Below, piece by piece: positions 2,018-21,661 of a stretch of DNA of 64,000 nucleotides; position 1 is the stretch's first letter, and each line of letters starts with the position of its first letter. The DNA comes from Limnobaculum xujianqingii (GTDB taxonomy: Bacteria > Pseudomonadota > Gammaproteobacteria > Enterobacterales > Enterobacteriaceae): assembly GCF_013394855.1 (NCBI RefSeq), contig NZ_JABMLK010000001.1, forward strand, positions 806,001 through 870,000, given 5' to 3'. The notes beneath the pieces are model-generated. The model did not search any database. It was not told where the DNA came from and was given only the letters and a program-made list of their open reading frames with translations. The position numbers and the translations under genes are program-made.

Positions 2018-2035
2018 TTTAATCTCGGCTAAAAT
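2018..2035 (+). promoter_or_regulatory. putative late promoter, copy A (lysis unit)
   Basis: One of four intergenic copies of TTTAAnCYYSRYTAAAAT. TAAAAT at 2030-2035 would be the -10 element; there is no matching -35 hexamer, as expected for activator-dependent late promoters. It lies 59 nt before the holin start. Transcription starting about 7 nt downstream would place the hairpins at 2040-2089 in the leader. Confidence 0.6.
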
Positions 2036-2039
2036 ACCC

Positions 2040-2089
2040 AAACCCCAGCACCGCCTACTATGGCGGTGTTTTCAATTCTATTGGGGTTT
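2040..2089 (+). promoter_or_regulatory. leader hairpin that can cover the holin ribosome site
   Basis: AAACCCCA at 2040-2047 is perfectly complementary to TGGGGTTT at 2082-2089, which contains the GGGG ribosome binding site of the holin start at 2095. The inner hairpin (2049-2068) brings the arms together. In the predicted leader this fold would hide the ribosome site, so it may delay lysis gene translation. The structure is seen in sequence; the function is inferred. Confidence 0.45.
2049..2072 (+). terminator. hairpin with T tract before holin
   Basis: CACCGCC (2049-2055) pairs with GGCGGTG (2062-2068) around a six-base loop and is followed by TTTT. It can terminate the upstream secreted-protein gene. 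It also lies just after late promoter copy A, so it may act as an attenuator or leader stem. Confidence 0.6.
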
Positions 2090-2094
2090 AAATC

Positions 2095-2463
2095 ATGTCG
2101 TTACTAAAAAGTGTCCGCCAACATCGTTTACTGACCTGGGCGTTAGCCACCGTCATCCTACTCGGCGTTATCGCCGTTCTGTCACCACAGCAGTTACCTG
2201 TCACTCTCTATAAGCTTTCTCTGGTCTCCTTAGCGGCGGTGATCGGGTATCACTTAGACCGGGCATTATTTCCGTATGCCAGCCCCGGTAGTTACTTGGT
2301 TGATAACTGGAAAGCTATCAGTGCTCACCCGATTAACGGAGTGGATAAACTTGAACCTGAATACCCGGTAATTAGTGGTTATCAGCGTATATTCGCCGCT
2401 GTTCTGTTGCGCCGGGCGATTGTCGTCATGGCCGTTATTCTTGGCGTAACATTGGGGCTGTAA
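2095..2463 (+). CDS. putative holin
   Basis: A 122-residue inner-membrane protein with hydrophobic helices at about 14-30, 35-52 and 100-120. Its size and its position directly before the lytic enzyme and the spanin genes match putative holins of Mu-like prophages, which permeabilise the inner membrane at lysis time. It is the first gene after late promoter copy A. The gap to the next gene is 2 nt, so the lysis genes form one transcript. Confidence 0.7.
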   Translation: MSLLKSVRQHRLLTWALATVILLGVIAVLSPQQLPVTLYKLSLVSLAAVIGYHLDRALFPYASPGSYLVDNWKAISAHPINGVDKLEPEYPVISGYQRIFAAVLLRRAIVVMAVILGVTLGL

Positions 2464-2465
2464 TC

Positions 2466-3077
2466 ATGAGAGCCGTTATCTTACTTATCTTACTGATAAC
2501 GGCCTGTCATCCGGTGCTGGCTTCAACAATACCGGCTGATGCGGCCCGTTATAAGCGCGACCTTATCCGTGTTTCCCATGCTGAATGGGGACTGGATGCA
2601 CCGGTAGCCACTTTCGCTGCCCAAATCCATCAAGAAAGCCGCTGGCGCACTGATGCCCGTTCGCCAGTCGGCGCTCTTGGCTTAGCTCAGTTTATGCCAG
2701 GAACATCAAAGTGGATTGCCGGTACCTATCCTGACCGTCTCGACGGTAATCAACCCTATAACCCGATGTGGTCTCTACAAGCTCTGATTATCTATAACCG
2801 ATGGCATTACCAGCGTATCCCCGCGCAGACAGATTGTGACCGCTGGGCCTTTACGCTAAGCGCCTACAACGGTGGCTTAGGCTGGGTTCAGCGTGACAAG
2901 AAGAAGGCAGCAGCTCAGGGGCTTGATGCCAGCCGTTATTGGGGCTCGGTTGAGTATGTTAATGCCGGGCGCAGCGCTGCCAACTTTAAGGAAAATCGGG
3001 GTTATCCAGACCGAATCATTAACCGCTGGCAACCGCTATATCAGGATGCTGGCTGGGGGATTGGTGTATGCAATTAA
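2466..3077 (+). CDS. endolysin: lytic transglycosylase (SLT family)
   Basis: A 203-residue muramidase-type lytic transglycosylase that cleaves the glycan backbone of peptidoglycan. The SLT fold is shown by the catalytic Glu57 in QESRW, the GLAQFMPGT motif at about 72-80, and the later AYNGG motif. The N-terminus is hydrophobic (3-20); LITAC at 10-14 also fits a lipobox, so it may be membrane-tethered or Sec-exported rather than holin-released. It sits between holin and Rz, completing the lysis cassette. Confidence 0.85.
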   Translation: MRAVILLILLITACHPVLASTIPADAARYKRDLIRVSHAEWGLDAPVATFAAQIHQESRWRTDARSPVGALGLAQFMPGTSKWIAGTYPDRLDGNQPYNPMWSLQALIIYNRWHYQRIPAQTDCDRWAFTLSAYNGGLGWVQRDKKKAAAQGLDASRYWGSVEYVNAGRSAANFKENRGYPDRIINRWQPLYQDAGWGIGVCN

Positions 3078-3475
3078 GAACCATCTACCTCATTTTTAGC
3101 GTCATTGCACTGGTGCTGGGTTTCTCCCGTTATTACTACCAACAGGGATTGTCCCAAGGCCAATTGGATTGCGCTCAAGGTAAAGCTGAATCGGCGCAAA
3201 GCCAGTTAAGCCAGTTCGTATCGGCCAGTCAGCAATTGGCCATCAATGCAAACCGAGCCAGCAAAAACCTGTCGGTAAAAATAGCGGCCCAAACGGCTGC
3301 TGACCAACACAGTACCCAGGAGATCCGCTATGTACTTAAAACAGTTACTCGCAATCGCTGTGAGTTTCCTCCTGATGTCATGCACCAACTTGAACAGGCC
3401 AGACTACGAGCCAATCAGGCTGCTACCAGCGGCATTGGCAGTGAGCTGTCTCCCTCTGCCAGCACCGGAGAATAA
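3068..3475 (+). CDS. Rz-like inner-membrane spanin
   Basis: A 135-residue protein with one N-terminal membrane helix (about 4-22) and a periplasmic coiled-coil-like body, the layout of i-spanins that link the inner membrane to an outer-membrane partner for the last step of lysis. It overlaps the transglycosylase stop by 10 nt and holds the start of the Rz1-like gene in another frame. Assignment rests on topology and context. Confidence 0.7.
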   Translation: MQLRTIYLIFSVIALVLGFSRYYYQQGLSQGQLDCAQGKAESAQSQLSQFVSASQQLAINANRASKNLSVKIAAQTAADQHSTQEIRYVLKTVTRNRCEFPPDVMHQLEQARLRANQAATSGIGSELSPSASTGE

Positions 3476-3593
3476 CGGTGATGACGCTATCGTTATTGCA
3501 TTAAAACAGGCTTATGACGGCTATGGCCTGTGTGCCGGACGTTACGTTGAGTTACTTAATTATCTACAGGATTTAGACGATGGACGATATTGA
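3330..3593 (+). CDS. Rz1-like outer-membrane spanin lipoprotein
   Basis: An 87-residue lipoprotein read in a different frame from inside the Rz-like gene. It has a lipobox (LLMSC, Cys18) after a hydrophobic signal and a proline-containing mature region, as expected for Rz1 o-spanins. The start is embedded in Rz and the stop lies 118 nt beyond it, an overlapping arrangement typical of spanin pairs. Confidence 0.75.
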   Translation: MYLKQLLAIAVSFLLMSCTNLNRPDYEPIRLLPAALAVSCLPLPAPENNGDDAIVIALKQAYDGYGLCAGRYVELLNYLQDLDDGRY

Positions 3594-3783
3594 TCGCGCT
3601 AGTGAGCTGGAAACCCAGCAACGGGAACGCGCACTAAAAGCTCGACAGCAGCCTGACACTATTGGTAGCAGCCGTTGCTTTGATTGTGACGACCCCATAC
3701 CTGAAGAGCGGCGTAAAGCATTACCCAGCGTTATCCGTTGTGTGCATTGCCAACAAATTCATGAAATTTGGGGAAGCAAATGA
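3580..3783 (+). CDS. TraR/DksA-family zinc-finger protein
   Basis: A 67-residue protein with a C4 zinc finger (CFDCDDPIPEERR followed by CVHC), the signature of TraR/DksA-like factors that enter the RNA polymerase secondary channel. Short versions are common in Mu-like and P2-like phages, and the P2-like prophage in this window has its own copy. It overlaps the Rz1 stop by 14 nt. A role in tuning host transcription is inferred from the family. Confidence 0.8.
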   Translation: MDDIDRASELETQQRERALKARQQPDTIGSSRCFDCDDPIPEERRKALPSVIRCVHCQQIHEIWGSK

Positions 3784-4091
3784 TTATCGAAGTGAAGTTT
3801 TGGGAAGTGCTATCCCTACTTATGGCATTTATGGGTTTTGTCTTTGCGGCTGGAAAAATCTTGATGGCTCAGGTTGAAAAACGCCTAGATATCCGATTTG
3901 AAGAGCTGGAGAACGCCCGGAAGAAAACAGAAAGCGGCCATATGCGGATGGAGCGTGAGTTTTTGGAGTTCAAAGCCACGTTACCGCTGGAATATGTCCG
4001 TCGTGATGACTTTATACGCAGCCAGACAGTGATAGAAGCCAAGCTGGATGCACTCTATAACCGCTTAGATTCCATCGGTAAACAGAAGTGA
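3780..4091 (+). CDS. small membrane/coiled-coil protein (DUF2730-like)
   Basis: A 103-residue protein with one N-terminal membrane helix (about 8-27) followed by a charged coiled-coil region. The ATG at 3780 overlaps the previous stop (ATGA) and follows GGGAAG. Proteins of this size and layout lie just before the terminase genes in Mu-like phages. The function is not established. Confidence 0.6.
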   Translation: MIIEVKFWEVLSLLMAFMGFVFAAGKILMAQVEKRLDIRFEELENARKKTESGHMRMEREFLEFKATLPLEYVRRDDFIRSQTVIEAKLDALYNRLDSIGKQK

Positions 4092-4111
4092 ACTGAGATA
4101 AGGAGAATGCA

Positions 4112-4420
4112 ATGGACTATCAACGTCACCGCCGTGAAGCAATGCGCTGGAATATACTGCTGATGCTGTATAAATCGCGCCCGTATACCACGAATGAACG
4201 TTTTATTGTGGACGTTATTGGGGCAATTTATCCCGATGTAACCGCGCTGGAGCTACGTCAAGAATTAGATTACCTGGCTGACCGCAAAATGCTGGAGTTA
4301 AACAAACAGCCATCAGGTATCTGGTTTTCCGACCTTACTCGTTTGGGTGTTGATCTGGTGGAATACACCATAGATTGTGGGCCGGGTATCGCTCGCCCCA
4401 TGAAATACTGGAGTGAATGA
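4112..4420 (+). CDS. Mu-like small protein with winged-helix-like fold
   Basis: A 102-residue protein preceded by AAGGAGA. Length, position and sequence (RWNILLML near the N-terminus, then a regular helix pattern and a short beta-like C-terminus) match the small ArsR-like proteins found upstream of the small terminase gene in Mu-like prophages. It may bind DNA during packaging; this is inferred. Confidence 0.55.
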   Translation: MDYQRHRREAMRWNILLMLYKSRPYTTNERFIVDVIGAIYPDVTALELRQELDYLADRKMLELNKQPSGIWFSDLTRLGVDLVEYTIDCGPGIARPMKYWSE

Positions 4421-4422
4421 CC

Positions 4423-4977
4423 ATGGCCAGACGCAGCACTATCGACAAGCTACCGGCTGAGGTTCGTCATTGGCTGGAACGTGCTCTGACAGATAGTAAT
4501 TTCAGTGGCTATCAGGAACTGGAAGAACTGATGCAGGGGAAAGGCTATCAAATCAGCAAGTCTGCGATCTTCCGTTACGGTAAAAAGATTGAAAAACGGT
4601 TTGCCACCATCAAAGCCAGTACTGAAGCTGCCCGTCTCCTGACTGAAGGTGCGTCTGATGACAAAGATGCACGTTCAGAAGCCATTATTGCCCTTGTTCA
4701 AAGCGAGCTATTTGAAACCCTGATCAACCTTCAGGAAGCGGACGAGACTGAAGACAAAGAGAAACGGGTTAACTTGCTGTCTACGGCGGCTAAGAATATA
4801 GCCACGCTCACCCGAGCCAGCGTTAACCTAAAACGTTACCAGGCTGATATTCGCAAAGAGGTTAGAGAGGAACTGCTACGCGAACAAAGCGCCAATCTGG
4901 ATAAAGAAGCTAAAGCCCAGGGGCTGGATGAAAACGCCGTTCAGTTCTGGCGTGAAAAAATCTTGGGGATCAAGTAA
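4423..4977 (+). CDS. DUF3486 protein, likely small terminase (Mu gp27-like)
   Basis: A 184-residue helical protein beginning MARRSTIDKL, characteristic of the DUF3486 family (Mu gp27), which sits just before the large terminase and probably acts as the DNA-recognition subunit in headful packaging. An in-frame ATG lies 6 nt upstream at 4417; 4423 has better spacing to GGAG. The stop overlaps the terminase start by one base. Confidence 0.75.
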   Translation: MARRSTIDKLPAEVRHWLERALTDSNFSGYQELEELMQGKGYQISKSAIFRYGKKIEKRFATIKASTEAARLLTEGASDDKDARSEAIIALVQSELFETLINLQEADETEDKEKRVNLLSTAAKNIATLTRASVNLKRYQADIRKEVREELLREQSANLDKEAKAQGLDENAVQFWREKILGIK

Positions 4978-6584
4978 TGAAGCCGCTAGCCTCAACCTTG
5001 CGCGTTGTTGAATGGGAAGAATTACCATCCCGCGCGCGTGATATTCCCAGTAACTTTAATCCTACGGCTGAAGGTGTGCTAATGGCTCACCAGATTGAGG
5101 TTTTGAAGATTAAAACCTCAATTCTTGCCATACCTAAAGGGCGGCGTACCGGTATTACCTTTGCCTTTGGTTTTGAGGCTGTATTGACCGCTGCATCACA
5201 GAAAGCGATTGGGGGTATGGATGTCTTCTATATCGGTGATACAAAAGAAAAAGGCTTAGAGTTCATTGGGTATTGTGCCAAGTTCTCCCGTGTTATTGCG
5301 GAACAGCAAAGTGCTTCAGTTTCCAGCATCGAAGAGTTCTTATTTGAAGATCAGGATGAGAACGGTAAAACCCGCCATATTACCGCTTACCGGATACGGT
5401 ACTCATCTGGTTATCAGGTTGTCGCACTCTCATCCCGTCCGGCAAATATCCGAGGTTTGCAAGGGCTGGTTATTATTGATGAGGCGGCATTCCATCAGGA
5501 TGTTCAAGGCGTGCTAGACGCGGCTACGGCGCTACTCATTTGGGGGGGGCGCATTATCGTTATCTCTTCCCACAAGGGTAAAAGTAATCCGTTCAATCAG
5601 TTTGTTAATGATATTGAAAATGGCCTTTATGGGCCTGATGCCTCTGTATATCGGGTGACGTTTGATGATGCTGTGGCGAACGGGCTCTTTGAGCGCGTTT
5701 GTTTCATGAAGGGTGAAGCCCCGACAGTAGAAAGCAAGAAAGCCTGGTATACACGAATTCGTAACGCTTATGGCCCCCGTAAAGCGGCGATGCGTGAGGA
5801 GTTAGATGCTATTCCACGTGATGGCAACGGTGTGTGTATTCCGGGTGTCTGGATTGAAAACGCCATGCCACCCAGTCCTGACCGTGTGGTGTTACGCCTG
5901 ATTCTAGATGATGACTTTGCCAAAAAGCCTAATGAAGAACGGAAGTCTTTTGTGGCTGACTGGATAGCGCGTTATTTAGAGCCAGTCATCGAAAAACTGG
6001 ATAAAAACCTACGCTATGCCTTTGGTGAAGACTTTGCCCGTCACCGTGACTTTTCCTCAGTTCTACTGATGGCGGTGTTGCCTAATCTCTATCGTGACGT
6101 GCCACTTATCATTGAGATGCACAAGGTTCCTACCAGACAGCAGGAACAGATCCTTTGGCACTTACTCCACGCTATCCAGCGTTTTTCTGGGGGAATGGAT
6201 GCTACCGGCCCCGGCCAGACATTGGCTGAATATACCGCTGATGAATTTGGTCATGACCGTATTGCCCAGGTCAATTTAAGCCGTTCATGGTATGGCACGT
6301 GGATGCCTAAGATGATCCAAGGGTTTGAGGACGGCATTATCACTTTACCCGCTGACGATAACGTCAAACAGGATATTCACTCCATAGAAGAGATTGACGG
6401 TATTCCTATGCTGTCGTCTGTTCGCAAAGAAGATTTGAAAGAACCCGAGCTCTATCGCCATGGTGACACGGCCATTGCACTGGTTTTAGCCTGGTATGCC
6501 TCCATTGAAATGAATAAAGGCCCGGTCAAGGCCCATTCACGTGGTAAACGGGCAACCACACAACTGTTAAAAGGATACAAATAA
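4977..6584 (+). CDS. terminase large subunit (Mu gp28-like)
   Basis: A 535-residue packaging motor: an N-terminal ATPase powers DNA translocation and a C-terminal RNase H-like nuclease cuts DNA. A P-loop-like PKGRRTGIT is at 53-61 and the Walker B segment VIIDEAA near 164-170. Acidic nuclease-type positions occur in FGEDFARHRD and later GGMDATG. Mu-type terminases package host-flanked DNA by headful cutting, so no cos site is expected in this phage. It is coupled to the portal gene by overlapping stop and start. Confidence 0.9.
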   Translation: MKPLASTLRVVEWEELPSRARDIPSNFNPTAEGVLMAHQIEVLKIKTSILAIPKGRRTGITFAFGFEAVLTAASQKAIGGMDVFYIGDTKEKGLEFIGYCAKFSRVIAEQQSASVSSIEEFLFEDQDENGKTRHITAYRIRYSSGYQVVALSSRPANIRGLQGLVIIDEAAFHQDVQGVLDAATALLIWGGRIIVISSHKGKSNPFNQFVNDIENGLYGPDASVYRVTFDDAVANGLFERVCFMKGEAPTVESKKAWYTRIRNAYGPRKAAMREELDAIPRDGNGVCIPGVWIENAMPPSPDRVVLRLILDDDFAKKPNEERKSFVADWIARYLEPVIEKLDKNLRYAFGEDFARHRDFSSVLLMAVLPNLYRDVPLIIEMHKVPTRQQEQILWHLLHAIQRFSGGMDATGPGQTLAEYTADEFGHDRIAQVNLSRSWYGTWMPKMIQGFEDGIITLPADDNVKQDIHSIEEIDGIPMLSSVRKEDLKEPELYRHGDTAIALVLAWYASIEMNKGPVKAHSRGKRATTQLLKGYK

Positions 6585-8059
6585 TGAGTCAGGGTATTTG
6601 GGTTAGTCCGAATGAATTTGTTTCTTTCTCCGAGCTAAATAGACCATCGAAAGAGGCTGTAGCGACCCGTTCACGCGTTAATGGCTCATTAGGGATTAGT
6701 GGCAAATTACAAAATCCCGATCCTGTCCTGCGTAAAATGGGCAAAAGTATCGAGGTTTATCGTGACTTGACGGCTGATGCTCACGTAGGTGGTTGCGTTC
6801 GTCGCCGTAAGTCAGCCGTTCTTGCCCTTGAACATGGTTTTGATCGGGAAAATGCTAATCCTCAGGTGGTTAATTTTTTAGAAAATGTGCTGGCAAAACT
6901 TCATATGAGAAGCATCATCAGCGGCGCGTTAGATGCTCCATTATTTGGTTATACGCCACTTGAGGTGATGTGGGCGGATGTTGATGATCACCTTGTCCCA
7001 GTCGATGTTGTTGCTAAGCCCGCTGAATGGTTCTTTTTTGACGATGAGAACCGGCTCCGTATGCGTACTAAAGATGATAAAGACGGTATTTTACTACCTG
7101 AGCGTAAGTTTATCTTATTCCGTCAGGATGCTACTTATGAGAACCCTTACGGCATTGCTGATCTGAGCCGTTGTTTCTGGCCAACCACATTTAAACGTGG
7201 TGGTTTTGAGTTCTGGCTGAAGTTTACCGAGAAATACGGTAGCCCGTTCCTAGTCGGTAAACACCCGCGCAATACCCATAACACCGAAGTAGATGCGTTA
7301 TTGGATAGCCTTGAAGCAATGGTTCAGGATGCAGTAGCCGCAATTCCTGATGATAGCTCAATAGAGATTTTGGAAGCTGCCGGTAAAGGTAGTAGTGCTG
7401 ATGTATATGAGCGTTTCTTGATGTTCTGCCGCTCTGAAGTCAGTATTGCTCTGACCGGAACGAACCAGACAACGGAAGCCGATACTACCAATGCCAGTGC
7501 TCAGGCAGGATTAACTGTGACTGAGGATATCAGGGATGCTGATGCGGAGTTAGTCTCTGAAGGCATCAATATACTAGCCCGTTGGACTGTAGAACTGAAT
7601 TTTTCAGAAAATGAAGAAGTACCCGTTTGGTCAATTCGTACACCAAAATCTATTGATAAAACGCAAGCCGAACGCGATCAAATCCTTAAAACCGCTGGCG
7701 CTAACTTTACCAACGAGTACTTTATTCGTGAATATAACCTGAAGGAAGGCGATTTAGGCGAACAACTTCCACCATCAGACGGTATGGGTTATCCCTCATT
7801 TGCTGAAAGTAAATCTCAAAAGCATGACCCGATTAAAGCCGCTGCTGACCAACTTAGCCGAGAGACGCAACCCATTATTGATGGTTGGATTGAGCGTATT
7901 CGCAGTTTTGCGGAGAAGGCTAAAAACATGGAAGAGCTTCAGGAACGGCTATTAGCCGAGTTCGATAATCTGCCTGAAGATGAGCTAGCCCAAGCGATGG
8001 CCAGCGCATTTACCGTGATTAACTTACAAGGTCGTGATGAGGTGAATAATGGCCGTTAA
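6584..8059 (+). CDS. portal protein, DUF935 family (Mu gp29-like)
   Basis: A 491-residue portal, the dodecameric ring at the capsid vertex through which DNA passes. Size, the block around YGIADLSRCFWP, and its place between terminase and F-type minor head protein fit the DUF935 family. The C-terminal 100 residues are acidic and helical. It overlaps the next gene by 11 nt. Confidence 0.88.
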   Translation: MSQGIWVSPNEFVSFSELNRPSKEAVATRSRVNGSLGISGKLQNPDPVLRKMGKSIEVYRDLTADAHVGGCVRRRKSAVLALEHGFDRENANPQVVNFLENVLAKLHMRSIISGALDAPLFGYTPLEVMWADVDDHLVPVDVVAKPAEWFFFDDENRLRMRTKDDKDGILLPERKFILFRQDATYENPYGIADLSRCFWPTTFKRGGFEFWLKFTEKYGSPFLVGKHPRNTHNTEVDALLDSLEAMVQDAVAAIPDDSSIEILEAAGKGSSADVYERFLMFCRSEVSIALTGTNQTTEADTTNASAQAGLTVTEDIRDADAELVSEGINILARWTVELNFSENEEVPVWSIRTPKSIDKTQAERDQILKTAGANFTNEYFIREYNLKEGDLGEQLPPSDGMGYPSFAESKSQKHDPIKAAADQLSRETQPIIDGWIERIRSFAEKAKNMEELQERLLAEFDNLPEDELAQAMASAFTVINLQGRDEVNNGR

Positions 8060-9152
8060 AGGTGTTTTCGGGCAAAAATTTAACCAGCAAAGTGATTACT
8101 TCAAACAGAAGTTGGCTATCCCCAGTGAGCGCTGGGATGATATTTCCAGAGAACAGCACGATCATGGATTTATTGTTGCTGGAGCGACAAAAGCGGCCTT
8201 AGTGAGTGATTTTAAAAAAGCCATGCAGTCGGTCATGGATGAAGGGAAAAGTATCCAATGGTTTCGCCAGAACTTTGACCAAATTGTGGAAAAACAAGGT
8301 TGGAAAGGCTGGACAGGTGAAGGCAGTAAAGCGGGTAAAGCCTGGCGCACCGAAGTAATCTATACCCAGAATCTTAAATCGTCTCACGCCGCTGGCCGTT
8401 ATGAACAACTGACTGACCCAGAGGTGTTGGCTGAACGTCCCTATTGGCGTTATGTGCACCGTTCTAGCCTGAACCCTCGCCCTGAGCACGAAAAATGGAA
8501 TGATTTAGTTTTACCCGCTGATGATCCTTTCTGGGATGAGCATTATCCCCCAAATGGTTTTGGCTGTAATTGCATCGTGGAATCATGCAGTGGGCGGGAT
8601 TTAAAGAAATTAGGTAAGGCTGGCCCTGATATGTCCCCAACTCGAAATACTCAGCTATATACCGATAAAAATACTGGCGAACAGCGCCTAGTCCCTGAGG
8701 GTATTACACCAGGTTTTGATTATGCACCGGGTAAAAGTGCTGCTCAAAATGCCCTTGCTGCTAATGAACAGCAACTCGCTTCATTTGATGCGGCGATTGC
8801 TCGTAAGAATGCAGAGAAATTGATTAATTCAGACGTTTTCTTGTCATTTTTTAATGGTCGAATGAAAGGCAATTTTCCGGTTGCTGTGGTCAACCGACAG
8901 CAGATGACTGAGATGGCAATAAAAAGCCCAGTATTGTCACTTAAACGAAGTGCTGTAATGAAGCTACGGACTCAATATCCCGATTTAAGCCCGTCAGACT
9001 TTCGCCAGCTACAAACCCAGTTAGATAACGCCCAGTGGCAGCAGAACAGTCAGGGTGAAAGGCAAACCGTTGTGAGTATTTCAGGTAAATCGTGGAACGT
9101 TCGAGCGAAGCCAACCGCCTCCGGTACCTATATTGAAATGGATCAAGCATAG
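8049..9152 (+). CDS. minor head protein F (Mu gp30-like)
   Basis: A 367-residue head morphogenesis protein. The family's conserved C-terminal signature is present: HEKWNDLVLPADDPFWDEHY followed by PPNGFGCNC, a cluster of His, Trp, Pro and Cys residues. In Mu, gpF is needed for head assembly and is carried in the particle. The gene follows the portal with an overlap and precedes G by 2 nt. Confidence 0.88.
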   Translation: MAVKGVFGQKFNQQSDYFKQKLAIPSERWDDISREQHDHGFIVAGATKAALVSDFKKAMQSVMDEGKSIQWFRQNFDQIVEKQGWKGWTGEGSKAGKAWRTEVIYTQNLKSSHAAGRYEQLTDPEVLAERPYWRYVHRSSLNPRPEHEKWNDLVLPADDPFWDEHYPPNGFGCNCIVESCSGRDLKKLGKAGPDMSPTRNTQLYTDKNTGEQRLVPEGITPGFDYAPGKSAAQNALAANEQQLASFDAAIARKNAEKLINSDVFLSFFNGRMKGNFPVAVVNRQQMTEMAIKSPVLSLKRSAVMKLRTQYPDLSPSDFRQLQTQLDNAQWQQNSQGERQTVVSISGKSWNVRAKPTASGTYIEMDQA

Positions 9153-9154
9153 TT

Positions 9155-9640: not shown

Positions 9641-9650
9641 TCGTCAATTT

Positions 9651-9689
9651 AAGGCTGGCTAAGCCGTTTTCACCTGTTTAACCAGCCTT
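9651..9689 (+). terminator. hairpin after gene G
   Basis: AAGGCTGG (9651-9658) pairs with CCAGCCTT (9682-9689), extended imperfectly inward, and is followed by a T-rich stretch. It separates the packaging unit from the protease/capsid unit, which has its own promoter-like motif at 9810. Confidence 0.55.
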
Positions 9690-9809
9690 TGTCTGTCTTT
9701 GCTCGTTTACATCGCTAAAAGGCTATTATAAATCGATATAGCCCCACTTAAGCCACCGTTCTTATCTACCCTTTACGGTTTCGTTAAATACCTATCTCTC
9801 AGTCTCTTA

Positions 9810-9827
9810 TTTAACCCCGATTAAAAT
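9810..9827 (+). promoter_or_regulatory. putative late promoter, copy B (protease/capsid unit)
   Basis: Second copy of TTTAAnCYYSRYTAAAAT, 58 nt before the protease start, almost the same spacing as copy A to the holin (59 nt). Mu has a late promoter at the equivalent place before gene I. The rest of this 245-nt gap holds the upstream hairpin, a TTGACA at 9844 without a good -10, and a short palindrome at 9849-9861. Confidence 0.6.
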
Positions 9828-9885
9828 CACCAAACCGGATAATTTGACATGGTAGCCATGACTAACAACAGCATGGTGAATATTA

Positions 9886-10938
9886 ATGTCCAAACTTATC
9901 CATATCTTTAAGCCTGGTACCCATCAGCCGATGGAAGGCGAACCTATCTCTTTCACCTTGAAAGACTTTGAAGCCACCGTTCGCGCCTACAATATGGATC
10001 TGCATGAAGCACCGCTGGTTGTTGGCCACCCGAAACACAATAACCCTGCCTATGGTTGGGTAAAGCAAATGATTGCCACACCTGAAGGGCTCTTCATTGA
10101 ACCCCATCAGGTTGATGAGGCATTTGCTGAACTCGTCCGTTCTGCCCGATTTAAAAAGATATCACCTTCCTTTTACGAACCGGATGAACCTAGTAATCCA
10201 GTACCTGGCGTTTATTACCTGCGCCACGTTGGTTTTCTGGGGGCTATGCCACCTGCCGTAAAGGGGTTGAAGGCGATTGAATTTGCGGATGGTGGACAAG
10301 GTATTGTGTGTTTTAACGAAAATCTTAATGAGGATACCAATATGGCTGATGCAGCTAATCCAACCGATAAAAAAGGTTTGCTGGCGCGACTAGTCGCTTT
10401 TCTGACTAAAGAGCTGGGTGAAGAAAAGGCCGCTGAAATCATTACTGAAGAAGGTGCTGCCGCTATTCAGGGTGCCGTGGCGGATGCTGCACCGGCAACC
10501 GTTAAAACTGACCTTCCTGCTGATGCCGGTGCGGATGAAATTTTACCGGAAGTCGCCGCTCAGTTAGTGGCTGTGTCGGAAGAAAATCAGCGATTAAAAG
10601 CAGAAAACGAAGAGCTACTGGAACAAGCGGAAGAGCTGGAAATTGATGGTGAGAGTGCTGATTTTGCCGAAGTGATTCGTCGCAAGGTCAAGCCTAGCCA
10701 CCGTGCAGCCGTTCGAGCCATGCTTAAAGCCGCATCTAAAAAGCGCGGTACCAGTAAGTTGGAATTTAGTGAAGGTGGTAAGAACAAACCGCTTACGCCT
10801 GCTATTCAGGCATTTATTCGTTCTCTTCCTGATGTAGTGGATTTCAGTGAAGTGGCCAGAAAAGGTAATACGCCCCGTAATACTTCCGTCAACCCACTGT
10901 TAGCTGACGCAGAACGCCGCGCCAACCGCAATAAATAG
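9886..10938 (+). CDS. head maturation protease (Mu gpI-like)
   Basis: A 350-residue Mu-like prophage I protein. The N-terminal half is the protease that processes the prohead, and the C-terminal half is a charged coiled coil (roughly 220-250) acting as scaffold. VVGHPKHNNPAYGWV at about 45-59 is typical of the family. An internal in-frame start at 10342 would give free scaffold, as with gpI/gpZ of Mu. The gene is followed by the decoration and major capsid proteins. Confidence 0.85.
   Translation: MSKLIHIFKPGTHQPMEGEPISFTLKDFEATVRAYNMDLHEAPLVVGHPKHNNPAYGWVKQMIATPEGLFIEPHQVDEAFAELVRSARFKKISPSFYEPDEPSNPVPGVYYLRHVGFLGAMPPAVKGLKAIEFADGGQGIVCFNENLNEDTNMADAANPTDKKGLLARLVAFLTKELGEEKAAEIITEEGAAAIQGAVADAAPATVKTDLPADAGADEILPEVAAQLVAVSEENQRLKAENEELLEQAEELEIDGESADFAEVIRRKVKPSHRAAVRAMLKAASKKRGTSKLEFSEGGKNKPLTPAIQAFIRSLPDVVDFSEVARKGNTPRNTSVNPLLADAERRANRNK
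10342..10938 (+). CDS. nested scaffold protein (gpZ-like), internal start
   Basis: An in-frame ATG inside the protease gene is preceded by GAGGA with 7-nt spacing, better than the protease's own ribosome site. It would yield a 198-residue acidic, helical scaffold equal to the C-terminal part of the protease. In Mu, scaffold Z is made in this way from within gene I. Internal initiation is inferred from the ribosome site and the family precedent. Confidence 0.65.
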   Translation: MADAANPTDKKGLLARLVAFLTKELGEEKAAEIITEEGAAAIQGAVADAAPATVKTDLPADAGADEILPEVAAQLVAVSEENQRLKAENEELLEQAEELEIDGESADFAEVIRRKVKPSHRAAVRAMLKAASKKRGTSKLEFSEGGKNKPLTPAIQAFIRSLPDVVDFSEVARKGNTPRNTSVNPLLADAERRANRNK

Positions 10939-10951
10939 GAGTCATTCAGTC

Positions 10952-11320: not shown

Positions 11321-11359
11321 TTCCGTTCAGCCGCCTTATATCTCTAAAGGAAAGACACA

Positions 11360-12343: not shown

Positions 12344-12353
12344 GGAAACGGTC

Positions 12354-14905: not shown

Positions 14906-14907
14906 TT

Positions 14908-15429: not shown

Positions 15430-15454
15430 TCAGTATTCACGTTACTGCTCAAAT

Positions 15455-15481
15455 ACCCGGACATGTTCCGGGTGTTTTTTT
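15455..15481 (+). terminator. Rho-independent terminator after tail tube
   Basis: ACCCGGA (15455-15461) and TCCGGGT (15467-15473) form a perfect 7-bp stem with a five-base loop, followed by G and seven T. It ends the capsid-sheath-tube transcript. Its T tract merges with late promoter copy C. Confidence 0.85.
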
Positions 15482-15496
15482 AAACCCCGCTAAAAT
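15479..15496 (+). promoter_or_regulatory. putative late promoter, copy C (tail chaperone/tape measure unit)
   Basis: Third copy of TTTAAnCYYSRYTAAAAT, immediately after the terminator at 15455-15481 and 72 nt before the chaperone start. A terminator followed at once by this motif argues that a new transcript starts here. Confidence 0.6.
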
Positions 15497-15568
15497 AACT
15501 GTCAATCAATAAGCTACAGAATCAGGGCTCAATAGTTTTTCCTTTTAGTTCTCTTCTGGAGCCTGAAT

Positions 15569-15856
15569 ATGAGCAAGAAAGCTGATTTCCTCACTGATAC
15601 CAAAATCCCTTTATTACGTTCTCTTACCCTCGGTACCGGCGAAACCCTAAGTGAACTGGTTATGCGTGTACCTACCCGTGGTGACATGCGTAAAGCCCAG
15701 CGCCATAGCAAAGAACAGGCTGATTCGGAAACCTTTCTGTTTGCTCTTTTGACTGGTCTGACGATGGAAGATATTGATGCACTAACGCTTGCTGATAGCG
15801 CTGAGGTATCAAAAACCTTTCGCCACTTATGTGGAGAATCTACCGACGAGTCCTGA
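15569..15856 (+). CDS. tail assembly chaperone, short form (gp41-like)
   Basis: A 95-residue protein between tail tube and tape measure, the fixed position of tail assembly chaperones that bind the tape measure before tube polymerisation. TLGTGETLSELVMRVPTRGDM at its start is typical of gp41-like proteins. TCTGGAG precedes the ATG. The end overlaps a second frame (15786-16007), which would be reached by programmed frameshifting to give the long form. Confidence 0.8.
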   Translation: MSKKADFLTDTKIPLLRSLTLGTGETLSELVMRVPTRGDMRKAQRHSKEQADSETFLFALLTGLTMEDIDALTLADSAEVSKTFRHLCGESTDES

Positions 15857-16007
15857 AAACTTACAGTCTATCGATGAATGGCTGGTACTCGAATTTCGAT
15901 TGTCACCGGCTGAGATAGATAACCTGAGTTTTGTTGACGAATACTGGCGGTGGTTTGAACTGGCTCAAGAGCGGAATAACCAGCGCATTGAAGCGATGAA
16001 TCAATAA
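15786..16007 (+). CDS. frameshift extension of the tail chaperone (gp42-like)
   Basis: This frame is open from 15786 to 16007, lacks a convincing start codon, and relates to the short chaperone by -2 (or +1). Mu is reported to use a -2 shift at the same gene pair. Within the overlap, GGAGAA at 15833-15838 would allow tRNA-Glu to slip from GAA to GAG by -2; AAA-A (15812) or TTT-C (15818) would permit +1. The encoded extension has conserved-looking acidic and Trp residues and ends just before the tape measure. Confidence 0.7.
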   Translation, partial: RLLIALRYQKPFATYVENLPTSPENLQSIDEWLVLEFRLSPAEIDNLSFVDEYWRWFELAQERNNQRIEAMNQ

Positions 16008-16019
16008 TATAGAGGCGTT

Positions 16020-18857
16020 ATGAGTAATACTATCTCTGTAGGTCTACGCCTGGGAGCGGTGCTTGATAACGCCTTTAGCTCTGTTTTTGGTAATGCCAAT
16101 ACTACCGTTAACCGGCTAGGCCGAACCACTGAAGCCTTATCCCAGCGCCAGCAGCGCCTAGGCCAGATTATGAGCCGGGCTCTGAGCCACCCCACCCGAA
16201 ATATTCAAGCACTGCGTACCCAATATGAGCGCCTGGGCCAATCCCTTGACCGACTAAGAACCAAACAAACCAAGCTCAATGCCGCCATGGCCAAACAAAA
16301 GGCGTTAGCCGATCAGCGCCAGGCCATGGGCGGGGAAATGATGGGCACCGCCGCTGCGGCCTGGGGGAATGCCACCATGCTCAGGGAGAGCGTTGGCCGT
16401 AGTGCCGAACTTAAAGATAGCTTGAGGGATGCACGGATCAAAGGCAGCTTAAGCGCTGAAGATGAAGCTCAGTTAGGTAAAGTCGTTCGAGATGCAGTAA
16501 AAGGCACAAATCAAGGCCATATGGAACTCTCTGTTGGTGTCGGCCAGTTGGTGGAAGGCGGTACCAGCATGGAGGAGATCCAAGCTTATGCTCCATTACT
16601 CGGAAAGGCTGTCACAGGGCTACGAATCAGCATGGATCAAGGTGCCGAGTCATTTCTGGCATTACGTGATATGGGTGTTGGCAGTGAAGAGCAAATGCGC
16701 CAGGCGCTTGATCAACTGATTTGGTCAGGTAAGCAAGGCGGTTATGGCATGGCTAATATGTTTAATGCCATTGGCCAACTCGGTGATGAAATTAAGAAAA
16801 ATAAGCTGGGCATGGATTCCTTGGGGGATATTGCAGCCACCTTACAGATTGGTGATGGCACGATGGGAGCCGAAAATGCCATGTCTGGGCTGAAAGGCTG
16901 GCTGACAGAAATGAACACGGATAAACGTGCTGCTGCGTTTTCCAGTGCCTACAAAACTATCGATCCCAATGCAGAATTCGATTACCAAGCATCCATGAAA
17001 CAAGCTGTTGCTAATGGATATAGCGAATTTGAAGCCAGTATGAAAATTGCCAGTGGTTTCTTAGAGAAGCGACTCGGCGCGGCGGGTATGGCTGAGATGA
17101 ATAAGTACAAGGGAAATGCGGAAAAACAAGCTGAACTCATGGAGAAATTTGGCCTGTCTGAAATATTTAAGGATAACAATCAGGTCAATATGGTGCTGGG
17201 TTACCGGCAGAATAAAGAAGAGTATGACCGTATTCGCGATGGTGGAAAATCTAACGGTGAGTCAGCCGGGACATTACAACAAACCGCTGATTTACGCATG
17301 GATTCCCCTATGGAGAAGTTTAAAGCCTTTGGTAATACCCTAAAAGAGCTCTCCATTACGGTAGGTGATGCATTATTACCGCCAGTCATCCAGTTGGTGG
17401 ATACGCTGATGCCCATTATTGGCAATATTTCAGGATGGATAGCCGCAAACCCTAAGTTGGTTGCCGGTCTTGTCGGAGCCGCTACGGCTGTCGTCGCCCT
17501 TAAAGTGGCCACATTAGGTGCGTCCTGGGGCATGAATTTCTTCGTCAAATCGCCGATGGCCATGTTGAACGTTGCCCTGGCTAACAGCAGTGCCAAGCTG
17601 GAGCTGTTCCGTGCTCGTATGTTGCTAGGTTCAGCCACTGGCACAAGATTCAGTAGTGTATTCCCTGGCATAGCGGCATCAGTGACCACGCTCGGTAAAA
17701 CCTTTGCCAGCGTTGGGCGGATGATGTTCTTAAGCCCTATCGGGTTGGTGATTGGGGCTATTGCCGTGGCCGCTTTGCTGATTTACAAGTACTGGCAACC
17801 TATCAAGGCCTTTTTCAGCGGTGTATTTGAGGGTATTGCCGAAGCCGTTGAGCCTATCGGTGCCGCCTTTACTGAAGTCTTTGGCCCCGTCGGTGAGCTG
17901 TTTAAGCCTCTGGTTGAATGGGTATCCAAAGCCTGGAATTGGGTTAATAAGTTATTTGAGCCTGTTAACTCTACGGCTCAAGAACTGACGAACGCCAAGG
18001 ACGCAGGACGGTCATTTGGTCAGGTGTTAGGCCAAGCCATCAATATTGTGTTACTTCCCTTAAAGCTTATGTTCAAGGCAGTCGGTTTAGTCTCAGAAGG
18101 GATTAAAGCCGCGTTCGCCTGGTCACCGATGGAAACTATCAGAACGGTCTGGGGAAGTATCTCCGGCTGGTTCAGTAGTACCTGGGACACAATCACCGGT
18201 TCTGTTAGCAGTGGTATTCAGAGTGCGTCAGATAAAATCACCAGTTGGTCTCCTTTGGATATGTTCAAAAACCTTTTCAGCAGCGTTTTAAGCTGGTTTG
18301 GTGTTGAACTGCCTGGTTCATTCTCAGCGGCAGGTGAAGCCATTCTGGATGGGCTGATTACCGGTATCACTAGTAAAGCTGCTGCCGTCAAGGACTCTAT
18401 TTTGGGTTTAGGGAGTTCTATCAGTGGTTGGTTCCAGGGCAAACTCGATATTCATTCGCCGAGCAAGGTATTCATAGGCTTTGGTGAAAATATTTCTGAA
18501 GGTGCTGCTATTGGTATCGACAATCAATCTGGGATGGTTGGTAAAGCGGCTCTCGATTTAGCTTCAGCCACGAACATCCCTCTGGCCAGCCCAACCTTAT
18601 CAGCCCCCAACTTACTCAATAATAATGTACCGGGTATTCAGTCTCCGGGTGCCGATGCTATTCGCAGTCAACAATTCGCCAGCTCATCAACAGGAATGAG
18701 CATCACATTTGCCCCTCAGATTACCGTTCAGGGTAATAGTGATGTCAGGTCGCAGGTAAATGATGCGTTAAAGATGAGCTTTAGCGAGTTTGAGAGGCTG
18801 ATGAAAGAGTACGAGCATCGTACTAACCGTAGTGCCTATAAGGGGATTAACGGATGA
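16020..18857 (+). CDS. tape measure protein (P2 gpT-like)
   Basis: A 945-residue tape measure that sets tail length and is injected with DNA. The N-terminal 100 residues are Arg/Gln-rich coiled coil, the middle has Ala/Gly-rich helices, and hydrophobic membrane-active segments occur at about 465-500 and 565-590. YWQPIKAFFSGVFEGI and LFEPVNSTAQEL have counterparts in the P2-like prophage tape measure (FWEPIKAFFSGFF, LFEPIHFSAEAL). The C-terminal DIHSPSKVFIGFGE block is typical of the family. It overlaps the next gene by 4 nt. Confidence 0.9.
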   Translation: MSNTISVGLRLGAVLDNAFSSVFGNANTTVNRLGRTTEALSQRQQRLGQIMSRALSHPTRNIQALRTQYERLGQSLDRLRTKQTKLNAAMAKQKALADQRQAMGGEMMGTAAAAWGNATMLRESVGRSAELKDSLRDARIKGSLSAEDEAQLGKVVRDAVKGTNQGHMELSVGVGQLVEGGTSMEEIQAYAPLLGKAVTGLRISMDQGAESFLALRDMGVGSEEQMRQALDQLIWSGKQGGYGMANMFNAIGQLGDEIKKNKLGMDSLGDIAATLQIGDGTMGAENAMSGLKGWLTEMNTDKRAAAFSSAYKTIDPNAEFDYQASMKQAVANGYSEFEASMKIASGFLEKRLGAAGMAEMNKYKGNAEKQAELMEKFGLSEIFKDNNQVNMVLGYRQNKEEYDRIRDGGKSNGESAGTLQQTADLRMDSPMEKFKAFGNTLKELSITVGDALLPPVIQLVDTLMPIIGNISGWIAANPKLVAGLVGAATAVVALKVATLGASWGMNFFVKSPMAMLNVALANSSAKLELFRARMLLGSATGTRFSSVFPGIAASVTTLGKTFASVGRMMFLSPIGLVIGAIAVAALLIYKYWQPIKAFFSGVFEGIAEAVEPIGAAFTEVFGPVGELFKPLVEWVSKAWNWVNKLFEPVNSTAQELTNAKDAGRSFGQVLGQAINIVLLPLKLMFKAVGLVSEGIKAAFAWSPMETIRTVWGSISGWFSSTWDTITGSVSSGIQSASDKITSWSPLDMFKNLFSSVLSWFGVELPGSFSAAGEAILDGLITGITSKAAAVKDSILGLGSSISGWFQGKLDIHSPSKVFIGFGENISEGAAIGIDNQSGMVGKAALDLASATNIPLASPTLSAPNLLNNNVPGIQSPGADAIRSQQFASSSTGMSITFAPQITVQGNSDVRSQVNDALKMSFSEFERLMKEYEHRTNRSAYKGING

Positions 18858-19714
18858 AACGCTGGGCCATTTTAGGTGATTTTTCATTTGATATTCTGAG
18901 CAGCCCCCATGCCTATGGCCATCGTTCGTCGGTGACGTGGGCAGAACACGCCCTTATTCAAGGTAAGCCAAAACTGGAGTATGTCGGCGACGAACTGGAT
19001 GAGATTACCTTTGAAGTCCTGTTCCATTCCCATCTGGTAAAGACTGAAACTCAGTTACGTTTACTCCGGGAAGCGAAAGAAAAACATGAACCCATGGCGC
19101 TGGTTATGGGGGATGGCGATTATAAAGGGCCGTATGTCATCGCCAACGTTGATACCAACGCCAACACCACCACACCGGGTGGCCGCATTCGCTCTGCCAC
19201 GGTCAGTCTGACATTAAGAGAATATACCGGTGAATTTACCCGTGCGGCACCGGGTGAAGGATTGCTGGGCTCTCTTCTGACCTATGTTGATGCTAAGACC
19301 GGAACTGACCTAAAGAATATGGCTCAGGAAGCGATCGGCTATGCCAAGACCGCCATGAATGTGATTAATGCCGGTATGGATGCCTATCACGAGATTAAAG
19401 AAAATCCACTATCAGTGCTAGGTGCGCTCTCCGAACTGTCATCGATTACCGGTGGTGCTATCGGGCCACTGGAACAGCTATCAGGTTTAGCGGATGTGTT
19501 TAGGGATGGCCAAGAGCTTGTGGATGCCGGTAAACAGGCATTAGATGATGTACGCCAGGCTGTAGATTATCTGAAAGATGACAGTTTATCGATTTGGGAT
19601 CGTCTCGACAGTGCGGCAGACAGTATGGGTAATGCATCAAGTTCATTAGAAAGCGCCAGTTCCAATGCACTAGCGCTGAGCGTCGGCGTAGCCACCCGGA
19701 GACTATTATCATGA
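18854..19714 (+). CDS. tail protein U-like with C-terminal extension
   Basis: A 286-residue protein. The first 130 residues match the P2 gpU tail protein family: short N-terminal strand, LDEITFEVLFH block, GDGDYKGPYVIANV and a final beta strand ending in REYTGEF. P2 gpU is about half this length; here a helical Ser/Ala/Asp-rich extension follows. It lies between tape measure and X as in P2-type tails, where Mu itself has the larger gpN. Confidence 0.75.
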   Translation: MKRWAILGDFSFDILSSPHAYGHRSSVTWAEHALIQGKPKLEYVGDELDEITFEVLFHSHLVKTETQLRLLREAKEKHEPMALVMGDGDYKGPYVIANVDTNANTTTPGGRIRSATVSLTLREYTGEFTRAAPGEGLLGSLLTYVDAKTGTDLKNMAQEAIGYAKTAMNVINAGMDAYHEIKENPLSVLGALSELSSITGGAIGPLEQLSGLADVFRDGQELVDAGKQALDDVRQAVDYLKDDSLSIWDRLDSAADSMGNASSSLESASSNALALSVGVATRRLLS

Positions 19715-19926
19715 CCCAGCAATATCGGTTTCATATCACGACTGAAGGTGAACGTTGGGATCAACTCGCCTGGCGCTATTATGGCGATGCTTATCTTTAT
19801 CCTCAAATCATTGCCGCTAATCGTCATGTGGCCATCACACCCACATTTAAGGCCGGAATAACCATTGCTATCCCGCTGTTGGAAAGCAAACCCTCTTCAG
19901 TAGGAATGCCGCCATGGAAATCATGA
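19711..19926 (+). CDS. tail protein X (LysM-like)
   Basis: A 71-residue protein with a LysM-like fold (EGERWDQLAWRYYGDAYLYP, then IIAANRHV), typical of phage tail protein X at the baseplate. ATGA overlaps with both neighbours show tight translational coupling. Confidence 0.85.
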   Translation: MTQQYRFHITTEGERWDQLAWRYYGDAYLYPQIIAANRHVAITPTFKAGITIAIPLLESKPSSVGMPPWKS

Positions 19927-21053
19927 AAAATAACGTGCCGGTGTCTGATTTTCGGCTTTTATATGAAAAGAAAGACATCAGCAGTGAACTGGCTGCTTAC
20001 CTGATATCGATTACTTATACCGATTTTCTCAGTGGTCAGGCTGATGAGTTGTCTATTGCGTTAGAAAATATTGACGGCCGTTGGTATGGTGAATGGTATC
20101 CCGGCCAGGGTGATGAACTGACCTTTGATCTGGGGTGGTTGGGAGAAGAACGCCGCCAGATTGGCGTTTTCGAGATTAACGACATCGATTTTCAGTTCTC
20201 ACCCAGCACGGTGACCATTACCGCTCAGGCGGTAGGTATCAAGAATTCAGTCAGAACGAAAACTGCCCGTGCCTATGAGAAGATGACGCTGGATAAAATT
20301 GCTAAACAAATAGCAGATCGTCAGGGTCTAACCTTAGTTGGCGCTATTGAACCTATCGCTTTAGACCGGTTGACGCAGCAAGAGTCTGATATTGAGTTTC
20401 TTAAAAAACTGGCTGATGAATATGACTATGCTTTCAAAATTGAAGGCAGTAAGCTAATTTTTCATGCCATTTCTGAGCTTTTACGTCTTCCTCCTGTGGC
20501 CACCTTCAAGTTAACGGATATTTCCGGTGGCCATATTCGTGACCAGATTAAACAGGTACCAAAAGCAGTGGAAGTTAAGTCACACGATCCCGCCAAGAAT
20601 AAGACCATCACTTATGATGTTAAGAACGGTGAAATGACGGCGAAAGACTCTAGCGTTAGCAAGTCAACAACCAGCGCCGACACCATCAAAACCTCAACCC
20701 GTTCGACTTCTCCTGAAGTGGCCACGGCTAAGGCTCAGGCAGAACTGGCAAAAGCTAACCGGGAGCGTACTGGCGGCAATATTGATTTAATGGGTAATCC
20801 TAATTATCTCAGTGGTAACTCAATCAGGCTTGAAGCCGGTGGTGAACTGAATGGTGACTACCTTATCCAATCTGCACAGCACCAATTAGACCGTTCCGGG
20901 GGATGGAATACCGCCCTGGATATCTGCCGCATCCGAGAGGCTGAAATTGTCACTGTCAAAGCGGATAAATCTAAGTCCACATCATCTGCATCCACACCTA
21001 AAAAGAAAGTCGTTATCTATGATGTGAAGAATGGACAAATGGGGAAAAAATGA
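19923..21053 (+). CDS. baseplate hub protein D (late control D / Mu gpP-like)
   Basis: A 376-residue hub protein of the gpD family that forms the base of the tail tube above the spike. The ATG at 19923 overlaps the X stop (ATGA). The N-terminal LSIALENIDGRW and QESDIEFLKKLADEYDY blocks match gpD. The C-terminal part carries two copies of a YDVKNG(E/Q)M segment at about 231 and 366, joined by a Ser/Thr-rich stretch; this duplicated element is unusual and has a cousin in the secreted protein at 1428-1997. Confidence 0.85.
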   Translation: MKNNVPVSDFRLLYEKKDISSELAAYLISITYTDFLSGQADELSIALENIDGRWYGEWYPGQGDELTFDLGWLGEERRQIGVFEINDIDFQFSPSTVTITAQAVGIKNSVRTKTARAYEKMTLDKIAKQIADRQGLTLVGAIEPIALDRLTQQESDIEFLKKLADEYDYAFKIEGSKLIFHAISELLRLPPVATFKLTDISGGHIRDQIKQVPKAVEVKSHDPAKNKTITYDVKNGEMTAKDSSVSKSTTSADTIKTSTRSTSPEVATAKAQAELAKANRERTGGNIDLMGNPNYLSGNSIRLEAGGELNGDYLIQSAQHQLDRSGGWNTALDICRIREAEIVTVKADKSKSTSSASTPKKKVVIYDVKNGQMGKK

Positions 21054-21607
21054 ATCTTGAATATGGCACTGTCTCCGCATGGGACGCTAAAACCTGTCGT
21101 ATCCGGGTTGACCTTCATGAAAATGGGCTGACCTCTTATTGGTTACAAGTCCCACAAGGGTACTCCAAAAAATCAAAGCGCCGTTGTCCTGTCGAACTGG
21201 GTACGCCGGTTGCGATCCTCCTTAAAGACGATGGTGTAGGTGGTGTATTACTTGGCGCTGTTTATTCTGAGGCGGAACCCCCACCTATCGAGGATGATGA
21301 TACTGATTATATGGAATATAAGGATGGCACAAAACTGTCCTATTCCCCCTCAGAACATAAGCTGGATCTCAATATCTCAGCAGGCACTGTGGATATAACC
21401 GCTCCGGCAGGCGTAACGATTAATGCCGCTGCCGGTGTCACTATCAATGCCGCATCAGGTGTAGCCATTAATGCAGGGTCTGGCGGTACAACGGTTATTG
21501 GCGTTGTTAACGTGACGGGTGACGTTATCGCCGATGGTATCTCATTAAAAAACCATACTCATCCGGGCATTCAAACAGGTTCATCATCAACGGGTCAGCC
21601 GCAATAA
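21050..21607 (+). CDS. baseplate assembly protein V (spike)
   Basis: A 185-residue gpV/gp45-type baseplate spike. The N-terminal OB-like domain has KRRCPVELGTPVAILL, and residues about 110-160 are a repetitive beta-helix rich in GVTINAA and SGVAINAG repeats. The end, HTHPGIQTGSSSTG, contains a His pair as in metal-binding spike tips. The second prophage's V ends in a comparable HSHKHSGVERGG. Confidence 0.88.
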   Translation: MNLEYGTVSAWDAKTCRIRVDLHENGLTSYWLQVPQGYSKKSKRRCPVELGTPVAILLKDDGVGGVLLGAVYSEAEPPPIEDDDTDYMEYKDGTKLSYSPSEHKLDLNISAGTVDITAPAGVTINAAAGVTINAASGVAINAGSGGTTVIGVVNVTGDVIADGISLKNHTHPGIQTGSSSTGQPQ

Positions 21608-21612
21608 GTCTT

Positions 21613-21630
21613 TTTAACCTTCATTAAAAT
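21613..21630 (+). promoter_or_regulatory. putative late promoter, copy D (baseplate/fibre unit)
   Basis: Fourth copy of TTTAAnCYYSRYTAAAAT, in the 54-nt gap between V and W and 31 nt before the W start. It would transcribe W, J, I, fibre and fibre chaperone. Confidence 0.55.
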
Positions 21631-21661
21631 CAGTATTTTCCCATCCAGCTATCATAGCCAT

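Follow-up and report, generated by a model that had tools for sequence, protein, structure and literature searches.

Putative Mor-type late promoters of a Mu-like prophage in Limnobaculum xujianqingii and predicted RNA hairpins over the genes that follow them

The late genes of a Mu-like prophage of Limnobaculum xujianqingii (prophage A) lie in the window analysed here, the whole stretch of 64,000 nucleotides (nt) at positions 806,001 to 870,000 of contig NZ_JABMLK010000001.1, and an 18-letter motif built on the inverted repeat TTTAA-N6-TTAAA stands before four of their units, those of lysis, head protease, tail chaperone and baseplate protein W. It is near certain that these four copies are late promoters of the Mor type, and the phage's own activator of late genes very probably binds to the motif, with Mor binding and the exact transcript start (+1) deduced from the layout. 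In addition, each late start appears, in modelled folds, to lie inside an RNA hairpin that would hide the next gene unless the RNA begins at +1. We judge it likely that operators of Mor-driven late promoters together with such start-locked masking hairpins explain the whole arrangement; the dyad, the −10 element, their spacing, the Mor gene and the start positions are read from the sequence and the masking is predicted by folding, from which we infer that Mor binds, where exactly the RNA begins and how translation is affected.

The operator motif and the promoter layout

An earlier note on this DNA had claimed four copies of the motif, and matches with zero mismatches were found exactly at 2018, 9810, 15479 and 21613, all on the + strand. 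Its statements that 12 of the 18 positions are invariant, that the copies are intergenic and that copies A and B stand 59 and 58 nt before their genes were all confirmed, and copy C indeed follows a strong terminator, the T-run of which overlaps the motif (Table 1). The TTTA-N8-TAAA symmetry described there holds as a dyad and is better written as TTTAA-N6-TTAAA (16 bp), the 18th base not being fixed, since it is G in 87% of the protease promoters of relatives (TTAAAAG).

Whether the motif is equally common in host DNA, which had been named as a ground for refutation, was checked in 4,761,652 bp of the genome. Seven exact matches were found, six of them within two Mu-like prophages: four in prophage A, two in a second one, prophage B, and one elsewhere (C2:1688512). 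With at most one mismatch, 8 of the 11 genome-wide matches fell inside the two prophages, and the one exact and two one-mismatch matches outside them all lacked a promoter −10. Up to two mismatches, the genome held 26+27 matches versus 15+11 for a reversed-pattern control; up to three, the window held 11 versus 5.4 expected, a count reached by 2 of 100 shuffles, indicating that the loose pattern is only mildly enriched. Exact matches occurred in 10 of 198 genomes sampled from the family; the three genomes of the window's genus, its own included, had 4, 6 and 7, and the other seven had one or two each, eight in total, about the level of the reversed control (6 matches in 5 genomes).

Prophage B (C1:2.78-2.82 Mb; L012-L014) carries the motif before the same four genes, as two exact and two one-mismatch copies (lysis and protease), and its late region is about 70-77% identical to that of prophage A. 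Owing to their different upstream cargo, the two are continuously similar only from 2014 onward, four bases ahead of copy 1; to the left of 2014, only short, weak matches between them were found. A degenerate inverted copy of the motif (two mismatches) lies on the minus strand at window 2075-2092, just upstream of the holin start and overlapping the 3′ arm of the masking hairpin described below, and such a copy is present in prophage B as well.

Relatives were collected through the capsid protein (51 loci, 3 loci and 80 retained of 522), the best phage match of which, among the best 50 of 1119 records, had 41% identity over 98% (42% over 79%), all 1119 being below 60%. The promoter scan covered 108 sources including the window, with L088-L103 left out. 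Homologous upstream regions were used, because a de novo dyad search, successful in AT-rich loci, had a poor yield in GC-rich ones. A tblastn match to the protease was present in 78 loci and began within 15 residues of the start in 76; after rows with no start found, with less than 100 nt upstream or with a repeated 40-mer had been dropped, 47 rows with the dyad and 13 without it remained. The 47 unique dyad sites, equivalent to 30 nonredundant ones, served to train a matrix of the dyad only, the −10 being excluded, and positions (d) were counted from the base after the 16-bp dyad.

Among the 30 nonredundant protease sites, A at d+24 and T at d+28 were each conserved in 90%, C at d+23 in 80% and G at d+29 in 70%. 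Outside the training set, A24 and T28 occurred together in 50 of 102 nonredundant sites, versus 1-9 of 102 at each other offset from 14 to 39 (25 offsets); five of these sites still preceded a protease, and after their removal the pair occurred in 48 of 97, versus 0-9 of 97 at other offsets. This conservation at a single offset places the −10 (NANNNT) at d+23-28, the +1 at about d+35 and the dyad centre at about −42.5. The activator-type site proposed earlier is supported, with a change of detail: the −10 is located outside the motif, 22 nt beyond the dyad (21 nt at W). A scan of the genome and relatives with the motif, as had been suggested, likewise showed the dyad recurring before late units with the −10 at a fixed offset, and in the genus-prophage sites examined and prophage B's other two, the −10 lay at the same place or one base closer. 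In one genome of the same genus, a W-type and a lysis-type promoter stand 2.9 kb apart (G003:C12:21859 and 24719; L030 and L032), perhaps a deleted remnant of a related prophage.

Ordinary sigma-70 promoters, with the TAAAAT at the end of the motif as −10, are a most improbable account of these sites. TAAAAT agrees with TATAAT at five of six positions, and TTTAA could be a remnant upstream element; this reading leaves the conservation at d+24 and d+28 unexplained, and a consensus promoter scan listed no promoter at the window sites. TAAAAT as a simple −10 was rejected, the G that replaces its last T in most protease promoters of relatives abolishing the key T at −7. Just upstream of the element, where Mor/C-dependent promoters would have a UP-like A/T tract, the protease sites showed only a modest preference for A at −4 (0.75 bit) and −3 (0.28 bit).

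The Mor-family activator and the early region

The dyad, two 5-bp inverted repeats around a G/C-rich hexanucleotide, has the layout published for the Mor site of Mu Pm, the centre of which lies at −43.5 (PMC4390567, PMC4287176). A Mor/C-type activator had been expected upstream of the window, and a Mor-family gene was found there, 8 kb away at C1:797714-798133. Its product matched PF08765 (103.5 bits) and the PHROG late transcriptional activator (E 2.6e-34), as well as the chains of Mu Mor (1rr7, E 3.6e-9) and Mu C (9l0x, E 8.9e-7) in the PDB. The gene belongs to an early region on the strand opposite to the late units, which also encodes GemA (114.8 bits), an AAA_22 ATPase (68.4 bits) and a transposase, the rve match of which is weak (24.9 bits, below the cut-off of 32.6). 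Of 21 relative records, 18 contained a PF08765 match, exactly one each, three of them weak (26-33 bits). In this phage group, the late genes are probably activated directly by a single Mor-type protein. Given the Mor-site layout, the PF08765 gene and the −10 at the required distance in relatives, late promoters under a Mor/C-type activator, as first proposed in the earlier note, are the best supported reading.

That the motif is instead the operator of a repressor or another DNA-binding protein is highly improbable. The site is palindromic, and the early region encodes a small protein resembling helix-turn-helix (HTH) proteins (protein 5; 20.4 bits, below cut-off). However, in both prophages all four sites have the same orientation before late units and a fixed distance to the −10, and the early operon of prophage A has no motif even at two mismatches. 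Furthermore, the operators of L049, L057 and L068 have TCAAA instead of TTAAA as the right arm, and these three phages share a Mor recognition helix that differs from the others aligned; this match is only suggestive, because the three may be one lineage.

The genome has five Mor-family genes besides those of prophages A and B. A search of 11 stretches, among them the surroundings of these five genes, gave eight near-consensus dyads with an A/T-spaced hexamer, none followed by a start codon of a frame of at least 60 codons within 20-110 nt, so that no promoter of the same code was found there. The dyads at C1:354693 and C2:1258664 are identical, and each has a Mor-like gene about 2 kb away (C1:356723 and C2:1260691), the two genes having the same score; this is perhaps a duplicated element. 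Near the Mor-family gene at C1:639651 (L185; 72 bits), no such operator code was found.

Predicted masking of late genes by RNA hairpins

We propose that a Mor-family dimer would bind the dyad and stand in for the −35 element, and that host sigma-70 polymerase would be recruited to a weak −10 (NANNNT) 22 nt downstream, RNA beginning about 35 nt after the dyad. A hairpin would accompany each +1, its 5′ strand either containing the start or ending just before it. Read-through RNA from the upstream unit would fold this hairpin, hiding the ribosome site or the start codon and in some cases perhaps terminating, whereas RNA started at the promoter would be translatable because the hairpin 5′ strand is absent from it. 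At W, the start codon would be the predicted +1 itself. Neither the hairpins nor this leaderless start figure in the earlier note.

This scenario was examined in 79 nonredundant sites for which A24 and T28 were required; this filter removed the W sites of L038 and L087, and the window W site, in which the spacing is 1 nt shorter, was included manually. Long frames opened at d+34-36 in 18 sites and at d+54-79 in 52. The 18, window W included, have an ATG at the predicted +1 and are thus predicted to be leaderless; this class required a long frame, excluding four more ATGs at the same place, and the leadered class (n=52) was sought at d+50-81 only, nine of the 79 sites having no assigned start and being dropped from class tests. 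Leaderless candidates include the W genes of the window, L108, L120, L122, L130, L133, L141, L143 and L148 and the proteases (L040, L049, L054, L057, L058, L108, L137, L139 and L140). In an unrestricted list, ATGs of long frames also occurred at d+24 (3), 27 (6), 39 (2), 40 (1) and 41 (1), with none at d+42-53, and protease sites with starts set by homology had no start between d+37 and d+50.

When 50-nt windows were slid along the sites, predicted structure, expressed as z against dinucleotide shuffles, disappeared toward the predicted +1. At leadered sites, z rose from −2.00 (window start d+13) to +0.42 (d+34), the mean energy going from −13.7 to −4.8 kcal/mol, and at leaderless sites from −1.56 (start d+1) to +0.65 (d+34). 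Over the 50 nt before the start codon, z was −2.10 at 48 promoters versus −0.22 at 494 ordinary gene starts of the same loci. Masking was scored as a fall of at least 4 kcal/mol in opening energy between read-through RNA and RNA started at +1. Opening energies at window sites 1-4 were predicted to fall from 11.6 to 4.7, 11.5 to 2.7, 10.2 to 5.7 and 11.9 to 0.9 kcal/mol, each by at least 4.5, and this test was passed by 38 of 70 sites overall and by 29 of 52 leadered sites versus 13 of 250 control starts.

At window site 1, AAACCCC in the outer stem is predicted to pair with GGGG in the ribosome site of the holin gene, and the loop of the inner stem is the −10; RNA begun at 2068 has a predicted fold of only −1.3 kcal/mol (z +0.6). 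In L087, an outer stem of this type gains one pair through changes on both sides. At 14 of the 79 sites, a perfect stem of 5 bp or more (7 bp or more at 10 of them) had the −10 as its loop, versus 0-7 at loop positions other than 23-24. In lysis promoters of GC-rich relatives (L120, L131, L134, L135 and L148), as at window site 1, a long stem has the −10 as its loop, the stem of L134 and L135 being cacacgccgcc/ggcggcgtgtg.

Mor-type promoters could also be combined with hairpins that are mere terminators of the preceding unit overlapping the starts, leaving translation ungated, which we consider unlikely. Several hairpins end in T-runs (ggcggtatgtttttttc in L062; GCGTC-TTTTTT abutting the −10 in L065), and the GenBank record of Mu annotates a predicted terminator inside Pm. 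In contrast, no T-run follows the 3′ arm at window W, Mu Plys and PI, L058, L139-L140 and the protease sites of Burkholderia type, the last label being our guess at the host type; at window W, Plys and PI, the ribosome site or AUG lies under the 3′ arm; and the average loss of structure coincides with the predicted +1. A consensus terminator scan listed no more sites than were obtained in shuffles and missed the terminator before site 3.

Several results weigh against the proposed promoters with start-locked masking. Of the 60 protease rows, 13 had no dyad in the stretch searched; five have one further upstream, L068 has a half-site and seven have none. Of the leadered sites, 23 of 52 failed the 4-kcal test, as did 9 of the 18 leaderless ones; the nine leaderless sites that passed compare with 38 of 250 leaderless controls. 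The hairpin of the Burkholderia-type protease set (19 sequences) was 80.9% paired, with no compensatory change and no better than shuffles; the five-sequence L061 set was fully paired with one compensatory pair, its covariation score being reached by 50 of 500 shuffles. Some T-run hairpins may act mainly as terminators of the upstream transcript. In Mu, with +1 positions derived from the dyad and −10 rather than from a transcript map, the fold retained at +1 is −8.3 of −14.9 kcal/mol for Pm and −8.5 of −13.4 kcal/mol for Pmom, a partial loss; in the predicted Pmom transcript (L090, AF083977), the ribosome site and start of com lie not in the stem, which has about 10 bp, but in the loop that it closes; and PP, inside a gene, has no masking hairpin. 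As covariation is unsupportive and about half of the sites fail, the proposed gate rests on the +1-locked folding statistics and the precedent of T4 gene e. We give even odds to a gate shared by Mor/C-dependent late promoters up to Mu itself, in which the −10/+1 DNA would double as the hairpin 5′ strand and only activator-driven RNA would be translated, part of the group having become leaderless as a further step.

Table 1. Late-promoter features of the window, with positions and the basis of each assignment
Feature	Position	Strand	Basis
Operator dyad, late promoter 1 (lysis unit)	2018..2033	+	Exact motif; same gene position in prophage B
Predicted hairpin AAACCCCAGCACCGCC..GGCGGUG..GGGGUUU over holin ribosome site, read-through RNA only	2040..2089	+	−26.1 kcal/mol, z −5.7
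−10 of promoter 1, TACTAT, in loop of 7-bp perfect hairpin	2056..2061	+	Offset d+23-28
Predicted +1 of promoter 1	2068	+	Deduced from −10 spacing
Holin, first gene of late unit 1	2095..2463	+	PF13272 E 2e-41; phrog_1528 holin
Operator dyad, late promoter 2 (head protease unit)	9810..9825	+	Exact motif
−10 of promoter 2, CATGGT; predicted +1 9860	9848..9853	+	Dyad offset
Head maturation protease (Mu I position)	9886..10938	+	phrog_976 E 3e-84
Intrinsic terminator, T-run overlapping operator 3	15451..15481	+	Fold −20.3 kcal/mol, z −5.2; sequence
Operator dyad, late promoter 3 (tail chaperone/tape measure unit)	15479..15494	+	Exact motif
−10 of promoter 3, CAGAAT; predicted +1 15529	15517..15522	+	Dyad offset
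Tail assembly chaperone	15569..15856	+	PF10109 E 3e-17
Operator dyad, late promoter 4 (baseplate W unit)	21613..21628	+	Exact motif
Predicted 11-bp hairpin UCAGUAUUUUC/GAAAAUACUGA burying W AUG, read-through RNA only	21630..21674	+	−13.6 kcal/mol, z −5.5
−10 of promoter 4, TATCAT, spacing 1 nt shorter	21650..21655	+	Dyad offset; same in prophage B
W/gp25 baseplate gene, ATG = predicted +1 (d+34), no Shine-Dalgarno seen	21662..22033	+	PF04965 E 4e-11

Four cargo genes lie between the early region and the lysis unit (window 24-1997). They had no Pfam, PADLOC or firm PHROG match, the product of 353-895 having weak ones only (LptF_LptG below cut-off, PHROG E 8e-4), and the N-terminus encoded by 1428-1997 resembles a signal peptide by eye. 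In prophage B, the cargo before the lysis genes includes two proteins with weak PADLOC matches, one PDC-S32-like and the other RmrA/HTH-like. Prophage A is flanked on both sides by similar repeats of about 170 bp (L009:7722-7890 and window 26439-26614); both repeats match one place near prophage B and possibly are a dispersed host intergenic element.

Comparison with known phage systems

The lambda cI-type leaderless mRNA has its start codon at +1 and no Shine-Dalgarno sequence. The leaderless genes predicted here differ in being late structural genes (protease or W) with a fixed distance from operator to ATG.

Common to the Mu promoters Pm, Plys, PI, PP and Pmom and to those of the window are the 16-bp dyad, in which two 5-bp arms enclose a GC-rich hexamer, the −10 without a −35 and a PF08765 activator, and NANNNT stands at the equivalent position in the four annotated late promoters of Mu. 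The parallel with Mu drawn earlier, late promoters before lys and I, held at the lysis and protease sites and did not extend to the other two, which precede the tail chaperone and W here, whereas Mu PP lies inside gene N. The TTTAA/TTAAA dyad differs from that of Mu; its predicted centre, −42.5 versus −43.5 in Mu, is one nt nearer; relatives have one Mor-family match per record versus Mor and C in Mu; and leaderless starts, predicted in the prophage group here, are a further difference. Predicted folds of Mu Plys (−13.9 to −4.6 kcal/mol) and PI (−14.7 to −3.1 kcal/mol) at the derived +1 suggest masking like that of the window.

According to a T4 review, long upstream transcripts of gene e mask its ribosome site, and late promoters within the hairpin 5′ strand yield unmasked late mRNA; four such genes, e, soc, 49 and I-TevI, are named there (PMC3014915). 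T4 is unrelated in phage and activator, its late promoters needing gp55 and gp33, and in contrast to its four named genes, the folds here predict masking for each of the prophage's four late promoters and for 38 of 70 sites tested across relatives. Mor-type late promoters are a known kind, and the start-locked masking that folding predicts for every one of the four late units, with leaderless variants, would be a variant of it, in which the logic of T4 lysozyme recurs in an unrelated phage group. No title reporting such a gate in Mu-like phages was listed in the literature searched, subscription journals being largely outside it.

The results provide a sequence code for late promoters in a Mu-like phage group that is represented here mainly by prophages and metagenome contigs, and a specific, checkable prediction for phage Mu itself. 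They suggest that the lysis and capsid genes of these phages may be doubly protected, by the activator and by RNA folding.

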